IMG/VR virus record: IMGVR_UViG_3300032242_000779
Location: 1 to 31,764 of that record
Strand: one strand, 5' to 3'
From: a virus
DNA length: 31,764 bases
Position 1 is the stretch's first letter. Every line of letters begins with the position of its first letter. Position numbers and translations under genes: made by a program. Under the pieces are notes generated by a model. The model made no database searches. It was not told the DNA's origin and worked only from the letters and a program-made list of their open reading frames with translations. Of the stretch, positions 15,816 through 31,764 are shown one piece after another.

Positions 15816-16028
15816 TTATGGGTTTAAAAATTCACTGCTTGTAGAGCGGCCATATGTGATGTTTGTTTGGCCCCTGATGTCTGTATTTTGCCAGCACCAA
15901 CATTGCCCATCGTTTTGGAAAACAATCCAGATGAGATCATGGTCGCTACCATAATCCACTAGAATATGTGCAAGACCCTTTCCCTTAGGCGTAACAACAG
16001 GGATTGGCGGGTTAAGCTGCAACAACAT
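15816..16028 (-). CDS. Conserved phage protein of unknown function (NPPIPVVTPKG family)
   Basis: 70 residues starting LQLNPPIPVVTPKGKGLAHILVDYGSDHDLIWIVF and ending with QCWCWQNTDIRGQTNITYGR. This compact pattern recurs in many phages and prophages of alphaproteobacteria and others, usually in early operons; I know of no assigned function. It overlaps the end of the GcrA-like gene by 17 bases and has GAAGGAG upstream of its ATG. It is the last gene before the leftward terminator. Confidence 0.85.
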   Translation of the reverse strand: MLLQLNPPIPVVTPKGKGLAHILVDYGSDHDLIWIVFQNDGQCWCWQNTDIRGQTNITYGRSTSSEFLNP

Positions 16029-16482
16029 GGTTTTTCTCCTTCAGCTTTGACGGGTGCGTATAACAAAGTTTGTGATGGGTTTTGCAGTATGATGATGCCC
16101 CGCGCTGTTCTCCACAGAACAAGGATTCGTCATCCACATTTCTTCCGATAATATATCGGCAAGAACTTGGTTGCAGTTTCATCAGCGTGACGCCACTGGT
16201 TGGTTTATTGCTAGGCAAATCACCACCGGCAATTGCTATCTGCAAAAACTCACCAATAACAGACGCCCTTTTTCGTTTAATCTCAGCAACATCAGCCCGG
16301 ATATTTCTAATCCGTTCCATATCTATCCGGTAGTCAATTTTACCAGCAGCGCGGCTTCTCCCAAGAATGCCCATAACTGCATTTCGGGTAATGCCAAGCC
16401 TGCAAGCAATTTGTCCGCCGGATAGGCCCGTCTGCCACATATCAATGATGGCATCCGTATTAGGGTTTATTATAGTTTTCAT
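16012..16482 (-). CDS. gcrA: GcrA-like cell-cycle regulator
   Basis: 156 residues. The N-terminus is a helix-turn-helix of GcrA type: IDMWQTGLSGGQIACRLG-ITRNAVMGILGR (residues 13-42). The C-terminus has the family's SCRYIIG...LFCG......YC..H pattern with C108, C123, C133 and H136/H137. In Caulobacter and relatives GcrA binds sigma-70 holoenzyme and activates promoters carrying methylated GANTC sites. A phage copy could redirect host transcription in S phase or serve phage promoters. The gene lies late in the early operon. The long middle segment (about 50-100) is more basic than in short GcrA proteins. The family call is confident; the role during infection is inferred. Confidence 0.88.
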   Translation of the reverse strand: MKTIINPNTDAIIDMWQTGLSGGQIACRLGITRNAVMGILGRSRAAGKIDYRIDMERIRNIRADVAEIKRKRASVIGEFLQIAIAGGDLPSNKPTSGVTLMKLQPSSCRYIIGRNVDDESLFCGEQRGASSYCKTHHKLCYTHPSKLKEKNHVVAA

Positions 16483-30293: not shown

Positions 30294-30932
30294 GTGAAAT
30301 CTGTAAAGCAAAAATCGGGTGAAAGCATTGGCGAGTCCACTGACAAGGCGCAAGAAAAGCTAAAGGCGCGTAAAGAGCGCAATGAGGCTCAGGCCATAGA
30401 AGAGTCACAAGCATGGGCGGTCATTAGAGCAAAGTCTCAACAGGCGGCAACAATGGCCAAGCCCCGTATCAAATACAGTGAAGCACTAGCAGATGAAATC
30501 TGCACTAGGCTTTCATGTGGCGAGTCATTAAATCACATGACGACAACGTTAGATCATATGCCAAGCATTGCGGCGATTTATGATTGGCTGGATAAACACC
30601 CCTCTTTTGCTTCAAACTACACACGCGCGCGGGAGAACGCCGCAACAACCCTATTTTCTATGGCAAAAGACGCAGCGGAAGATGACTCAAAGGACGTTAC
30701 GAAAACAGGCGAAGTGAATCACGCCGCCATTGCTAGGTCCAAGTTAAAAGTAGACACTTACTTGCGTATGGCTGGAAAGCTTTCCATCAAATACAGTGAG
30801 AGAACAAACCATGAACCTGCGCAAGTAACGGTCAACAACAACACGTTAAACGTGTCGGCGCGTGATCTGTCATTGGAGCAGCGCGACTCATTGCGTCAAC
30901 TGCTATTGGCGGCAAAGCATGAAGGCTCCTAA
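30294..30932 (+). CDS. terS: Terminase small subunit
   Basis: 212 residues from the GTG at 30294, seven bases after GGAG. A basic, charged N-terminal arm (1-55) precedes the core IKYSEALADEICTRLSCGESLNHMTTTLDHMPSIAAIYDWLDKHPSFASNYTRARENAATTLF, the HTH-like DNA-recognition domain of Sf6 gp1-like small terminases. Then a coiled oligomerisation helix (NHAAIARSKLKVDTYLRMAGKLSIKYSERT) and a C-terminal tail that would contact the large subunit. TerS rings pick the packaging site. The large subunit gene, normally next, is replaced by the repeat region and then noncoding sequence. A GAACAAA repeat copy lies in its 3' part. Confidence 0.88.
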   Translation: MKSVKQKSGESIGESTDKAQEKLKARKERNEAQAIEESQAWAVIRAKSQQAATMAKPRIKYSEALADEICTRLSCGESLNHMTTTLDHMPSIAAIYDWLDKHPSFASNYTRARENAATTLFSMAKDAAEDDSKDVTKTGEVNHAAIARSKLKVDTYLRMAGKLSIKYSERTNHEPAQVTVNNNTLNVSARDLSLEQRDSLRQLLLAAKHEGS

Positions 30933-30948
30933 TGTTTCACGTGAAACA
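30933..30948. promoter_or_regulatory. parS: parS centromere-like site 1
   Basis: TGTTTCACGTGAAACA, a perfect 16-bp palindrome identical to the consensus chromosomal parS recognised by ParB in most bacteria. It follows the terS stop codon directly. Confidence 0.9.
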
Positions 30949-31031
30949 TAGGCCAAGCTTATGTTGGGGCGGTGTTCACGTTCTGTTACTGGTATGTTCT
31001 CCGGCAGAACAAACCATGAACAAACCAAGAA

Positions 31032-31047
31032 TGTTTCACGTGAAACA
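31032..31047. promoter_or_regulatory. parS: parS centromere-like site 2
   Basis: Second perfect copy of the 16-bp palindrome, 99 bases after the first. The following bases (ATGGCCACGTTCATGTTGCCG) resemble those after site 3. Confidence 0.9.
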
Positions 31048-31105
31048 ATGGCCACGTTCATGTTGCCGGAACAAACCGTGAACAAAACCAGAACGCCGCG
31101 CAAAG

Positions 31106-31121
31106 TGTTTCACGTGAAACA
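31106..31121. promoter_or_regulatory. parS: parS centromere-like site 3
   Basis: Third perfect copy, 74 bases after the second. The trailing sequence (ATAGCAACGCTCATGCTGGCG) matches that after site 2 at most positions, showing that a longer unit was duplicated. Confidence 0.9.
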
Positions 31122-31195
31122 ATAGCAACGCTCATGCTGGCGCGTTCCGCATCTGTTCACGTTTTGTTCTGAGTTTGTTCTTGTTTTGTTCAGGT

Positions 31196-31764
31196 ACCCT
31201 TGACGACGACCGGGGTAGCACAAGCTGGGCAAGAGGCCGGGCCGGTCTGGGCCCCTTTTCCCCTCCCTGCAAATCCCCCCACAAACCAGTATTTACAAAC
31301 CAACCTAACCCCCCCCCCCCCCTCCCCACTCCCGCATGTGTGTGTTGTGCCCTGTGCCCCAAGCCTGGAGGCCTGGCTGCCTCTGAATTCCTGTTTGGTA
31401 TTTTTCCTTTCTCAGAGTACTCCCAAAATTTAGTTCACAAGCTCAAAGCTAGGTGACTCCCATTTAAACTCTAAATTTTTGAATTTTCCTATCTTATTGT
31501 TCCTAAAAAATGCAAAGAGTGAAATTCGCAATATTGACCAATCAGCTGCTTTACATACTTCCTCCACGTTTCAAATTACATAAATACTCAACGTAACTTT
31601 TACTGTGAAAATTACAAAAATCCATAATTCATTATAACAAACTAGAGGAAAGAACCAGGAAAAACTCAATACCCTGTTGGAAAAACGCACTCGGGAGAAG
31701 ACCCGAGTAATTTTCATGGGAAGTGCGCAGCCTGTATGCGCATTTCATTGTTTGATTAAAGCGA
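31196..31764. other. Noncoding terminal segment of unlike composition, possible chimera
   Basis: 569 bases without a believable gene, in contrast to the dense coding elsewhere. The first part is GC-rich with a C14 run (31309-31322); from about 31380 it becomes AT-rich and low in open frames, with text such as ATTGACCAATCAGCTG. A small hairpin (ACTCGGG/CCCGAGT, about 31689-31709) lies near the end. It replaces the expected large terminase gene. Foreign (perhaps eukaryotic) DNA joined in assembly, or host DNA, are both possible. Confidence 0.5.

Follow-up and report, generated by a model that had tools for sequence, protein, structure and literature searches.

Perfect chromosomal-type parS sites between the terminase genes of a phage family without ParA and ParB, and their possible use in capture of host ParB

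The window, i.e., the whole stretch of 31,764 nucleotides of viral DNA that was analysed, contains near its end a gene for the small terminase subunit (terS), followed by three copies of the exact 16-bp palindrome TGTTTCACGTGAAACA (Table 1). The terS stop codon TAA occupies positions 30930-30932 and the first copy starts at the next base, which means that the array lies right after terS in the literal sense. The sequence TGTTTCACGTGAAACA is the consensus for chromosomal parS as used in PMC10197239 and all three 16-mers are identical to it, so that the original prediction of three perfect parS sites within 190 bases after terS holds in both coordinates and exactness. No further copies occur elsewhere in the window when up to three mismatches are allowed. 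Dinucleotide shuffles of the window gave on average 0.18 such loose matches and never three in the same shuffle.

Interleaved with the parS sites, and then continuing past them, are GAACA and TGTTC repeats with a spacing of exactly 11 bp, in blocks about 51 bp apart, and the same phasing is found in relatives G010, G020, G021, G029, G048 and G052. Judged from their sequence, these repeats are possible protein-binding sites of the TerS (pac) or origin type; the GC skew displays no clear origin. The window also has a gene matching the GcrA family profile PF07750, as had been predicted, and a GcrA-family gene is present in near-complete relatives as well, G020 among them.

Table 1. Coordinates of the features discussed, in window positions.
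Feature	Position	Strand	Remark
GcrA-family gene	16012..16482	-	PF07750, E 1.7e-17
terS, small terminase subunit	30294..30932	+	PHROG 1482, E 1.8e-22
parS site 1, perfect	30933..30948		from first base after terS stop codon
GAACA repeats (31007, 31018; 31069, 31080)	within 30973..31191		11-bp spacing
parS site 2, perfect	31032..31047		exact motif match
parS site 3, perfect	31106..31121		exact motif match
TGTTC repeats (31154, 31165, 31176, 31187)	within 30973..31191		11-bp spacing
Contig end without similarity to any relative	31319..31764		last ~430 bp

Homology to relatives spans terS and the whole array and extends to about 31318-31330. Three terS relatives identified by protein search all have the array directly after terS, with three exact and one or two one-mismatch parS sites each. 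The array could in principle have been joined to the phage from an unrelated replicon during assembly, which the original prediction had named as its own refutation, but this source is rejected, since the relatives carry the array at the same place. The contig end beyond the homology, which consists of a poly-C run and AT-rich DNA, may well be chimeric or host-foreign, and it probably does not belong to the array region.

Since most contigs had first been found via the motif, relatives were resampled by their large terminase subunit (TerL) alone (alignment A2). This gave 52 loci. Upstream of terL, 33 of them extend over 2.5 kb or more, and 28 of these 33 have one or more exact parS sites no further than 4 kb from terL; one locus (G020, identical to L254) was scored negative solely because of a contig break between its array and terL. 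When the TGTTTCACGTGAAACA palindrome is instead read backwards and one mismatch is allowed, there is no match in 590 kb. Where a terS could be recognised in the locus, 85 of the 86 exact sites fall in the terS-terL interval. The motif is sharply delimited: CACGTG occurs upstream of terL in 102 distinct contexts, of which 86 match parS perfectly, a single one deviates at four positions, the others deviate at six or more and none at one to three, and conservation falls sharply beyond the 16 bp, where just a weak A before and a weak T after the palindrome can be discerned. The number of sites varies from one to five per genome, and their spacing and flanks differ between relatives, from which we conclude that single sites are gained and lost, with the motif and its interval being kept.

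The near-complete genome of G089 (61.1 kb) has all its three sites inside the terS-terL interval. The contig of G020 (57.9 kb), which encodes terS, primase, helicase, methyltransferase, a GcrA-like protein, tail, portal, capsid and terL, is probably near-complete, both from this gene content and because its contig break falls in a poly-C tract just past the array. The TerS proteins of these two phages are only about 30% identical and the parS motif is the same in both, which means that it is the parS sequence that is conserved, and not a TerS-specific site. With several sites that are clustered, conserved and identical to the consensus, the array in the window appears to be made of true parS sites of the chromosomal type that selection has maintained.

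The array is, at the same time, dispensable in parts of the family. Neither the near-complete relative G087 (57.6 kb, with a GcrA gene) nor the sister phage G064 has a parS site, which makes the array a clade trait rather than a universal need; G066 has one imperfect site and the terS-encoding relatives L277, L288 and L297 have none. No exact parS was found in the stretches read of the major capsid protein (MCP) relatives on Bealeia and Megaera plasmids or of the TerL relatives MW202675 and CRP-902. A single one-base variant, TGTTTCACGGGAAACA, recurs, eight times in one orientation and twice in the reverse (L025 at 5013 and 5308; G018, G021, G048, G052, G029, G067 and G093). It is half parS and half similar to a Noc site, and is often located towards terL, just before TTA, a stop codon on the minus strand. 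Apparent tRNA genes, recognised by eye, lie between the parS array and terL in G018, G021, G029, G048 and G052.

The fixed place of the sites beside the terminase genes fits a role in packaging as well as it fits a role in partition. ParB bound beside the packaging start could recruit SMC, as it does at parS (PMC7333895), and thereby individualise concatemers or keep the start open to the terminase, with the 11-bp repeats acting as TerS (pac) sites. The array is strictly confined to terS-terL in this family and clusters also lie near terL in a group with phrog_38 terminases, and phased repeats next to terS are present in the window and in several other members. However, the repeats are absent in G013, which nevertheless has five parS sites, and L277, L288 and L297 manage with terS but no parS. 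The motif moreover does not track the type of TerS, being the same at 30% TerS identity and missing in terS relatives at 41-45% identity. Clusters on other phages adjoin DNA polymerase, head, tail or Zot genes instead, and phi29-like and filamentous phages have no such TerS. We therefore regard packaging or condensation as quite unlikely to be what the sites are mainly for.

The statement that the window encodes neither ParA nor ParB was confirmed by profile searches, in which ParB_N (PF02195) and the ParA profile AAA_31 (PF13614) found no match in the window and were positive in control genomes. The near-complete relatives G020 and G089 have the array and no match to ParA or ParB, ParB_N was found in 0 of 42 TerL-sampled relatives, and ParA in 0 of 14 family records. 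A ParA or ParB of the phage's own, encoded elsewhere in its genome, was rejected on account of the near-complete relatives. Neither the ParA nor the ParB gene that a self-contained phage or plasmid parABS system would have on the same replicon is thus present, and what remains is a phage genome that has parS but no ParB, as in the phi29 type of host-ParB capture.

Similar arrays are found far outside this family. Apart from the window, 61 viral contigs have two exact parS sites within about 100 bp of each other, and a search for pairs of the reversed palindrome at the larger of the two spacings found none. Single exact parS sites in viral contigs amount to at least 120 rows, compared to one reversed palindrome in the whole collection. 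An 18-mer parS is present in 155 records of isolated phages and the reversed 18-mer in none, where these figures are to be read as counts, each single BLAST match having an E-value of about 4; in E. coli genomes the 18-mer gave no match in a BLAST search over 28 Gb, a size at which the E-value limit cannot be reached. Depending on the threshold for shared proteins, the cluster contigs fall into 20 to 33 groups, which include phi29-like phages (DNA polymerase, connector), a T7-like polymerase/SSB context, phages with HK97-type head and portal, phages with phrog_38 terminases and a Zot-encoding filamentous phage. Misfiled chromosome fragments are an unlikely explanation of these contigs: ParA is found in 0 of 58 array contigs, and in many of them terminase, portal, head or tail genes adjoin the parS sites. 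Of the 62 cluster contigs (window included), two have a ParB_N match above the cut-off and two more have one below it. A tyrosine integrase is found in 3 of 58 array contigs, a number to be read with the reservation that its baseline frequency is lacking and that several contigs are short.

Among named phages, the filamentous inovirus bajarodino virus 6 (L249, PQ006135) has six exact parS sites in a genome of 5.9 kb, Gordonia phage Woes has two in the stretch read, Bacillus phage B103 has one together with one TGTTTCACGTGGAACA, SpV4 has one site, and Roseobacter phage DSS3P8, which grows on Ruegeria pomeroyi, has one in the 4.9-kb stretch read. This distribution bears on whether the 16-mer could be the operator of a DNA-binding protein, encoded by the phage or another one of the host, and resemble parS by convergence. 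The phage in the window does encode a GcrA-family protein and other DNA-binding proteins, but the identical, sharp-edged 16-mer is found again in phages with no proteins in common, the reversed palindrome is essentially absent and G087 has GcrA without the motif, which leaves such an operator highly improbable.

As the family keeps its sites in a fixed position and has neither ParA nor ParB, this phage very probably captures host ParB, and we are correspondingly confident that host ParB would bind the phage sites. Bacterial ParB is known to nucleate at parS and to spread from there with CTP, and also to activate ParA and to recruit SMC (PMC7333895, PMC8494293). In the same manner, host ParB would nucleate on the sites between terS and terL, close into a sliding clamp in the presence of CTP and spread over the adjacent phage DNA. 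The infecting genome would then behave as an extra "centromere," which host ParA, and SMC by way of ParB, could position, separate and deliver to daughter cells. The benefit would be that a phage without integrase or partition genes can hold its genome in place and have it inherited if lysis is delayed, and the likely setting would be a deferred or slow infection. To the whole of this reading, that the sites load host ParB in trans mainly for host partition or positioning of the phage genome, we assign a probability of roughly 0.55, in which the binding is the strong part, while positioning or partition as the main use has about an even chance. Against partition stands the absence of the array from G087 and G064. 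Moreover, no gene for lysogeny or plasmid replication was seen among a partial list of families, so that partition is not obviously useful to this phage.

Captured ParB might, alternatively, serve the phage by its absence from elsewhere. Phage copies with one to five sites each would then draw ParB off the chromosomal centromere, disturb segregation or the timing of division and leave a larger cell committed to the phage. Several exact, high-consensus sites per genome, multiplied by the phage copy number, would suit such a decoy, and both P. aeruginosa and C. crescentus tolerate an extra parS solely if it lies no more than ~600 kb from the native locus (PMC7333895). The parS mimics of SGI1, further, destabilise the replicon that supplies ParB (PMC10954446). 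A sponge would, however, hardly be built from one site, as in SpV4 and the stretch read of DSS3P8, nor be confined to one interval instead of scattered over the genome, and we consider the decoy unlikely as the main use. Since mimicry in SGI1 both stabilises the parasite and destabilises the donor of ParB, partition and titration do not exclude each other.

The host of the family is hinted to be alphaproteobacterial by the GcrA-family gene. MCP relatives in genome bins come from mixed MAGs (Telmatospirillum, a betaproteobacterium, Opitutae, Nitrospiraceae), and the bins are therefore not decisive. Three records filed as plasmids, NZ_CP133271 (pBealeia1, 57.5 kb), Ca. Megaera CP113869 and AP017967, all from intracellular alphaproteobacteria, carry capsid genes; the capsid gene on the pBealeia1 and Megaera records is akin to that of this phage family, with at most 49% identity in MCP, and CP113869 has a terminase gene in addition. 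The pBealeia1 and Megaera records are likely to be phage genomes or phage-plasmids.

Of the notion that the array is an isolated oddity, the part that concerns the reality of the array in this family stands and the part that concerns its isolation does not, given the precedent of phi29 and Spo0J and the recurrence of parS clusters on unrelated phages. We tentatively suggest that orphan chromosomal parS is a widespread and repeatedly evolved device, by which unrelated, mostly integrase-less phages (tailed, filamentous and single-stranded) may position, condense or inherit their genomes via host ParB, ParA and SMC, and which in the present, alphaproteobacterial-type family may be linked with both the packaging region and a phage-encoded GcrA. 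In that case, phages in general, and not just phi29 in sporulation, would have the bacterial centromere system as a host factor. One could then test by what means phages that neither integrate nor have plasmid genes survive in slow-growing cells and are passed on to their daughters, and also whether chromosome segregation is exploited or disabled by phages. Named isolates that have the sites are Gordonia phage Woes, Bacillus phage B103 and Roseobacter phage DSS3P8.

The closest known case is phi29, whose genome trapping in spores is reported to involve Spo0J (Meijer et al. 2005, as cited in PMC9437464). Likewise, phi29 is a virulent phage without ParAB and with parS-type sites on its genome; we find four near-perfect TGTTTCACGTGGAACA sites in EU771092. 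The sites of phi29 are dispersed along its genome and its host forms spores, whereas the present family, with genomes of ~58-61 kb and a GcrA gene, has perfect palindromes clustered in terS-terL and no link to sporulation. Phage-plasmids such as P1 and mycobacteriophage RedRock have their own parABS, and thus also parS on a phage genome, but they encode both ParA and ParB, while the present phage and its relatives encode neither. The parS mimics of SGI1 bind the ParB of the IncC plasmid and stabilise SGI1 (PMC10954446), so that here, too, a mobile element without ParB copies the parS of another replicon and uses its partition proteins; in that case a plasmid system is copied by an integrative element, and in ours the chromosomal consensus is found on a phage. 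Unrelated alphaproteobacterial phages carry CtrA sites ("lytic deferment") and some encode GcrA (PMC9437464). They resemble the present family in having binding sites for a host cell-cycle protein, but CtrA sites are operators for a transcription factor, while the sites described here are predicted to bind a DNA segregation CTPase. We found no report of orphan parS clusters on phages beyond phi29 in the open-access journal literature that was searched, so that prior reports are possible. With the precedents of phi29-Spo0J and SGI1-IncC ParB the principle is already known, and what appear to be new are the phage family, the fixed terS-terL position of its sites and the breadth of parS occurrence among phages.
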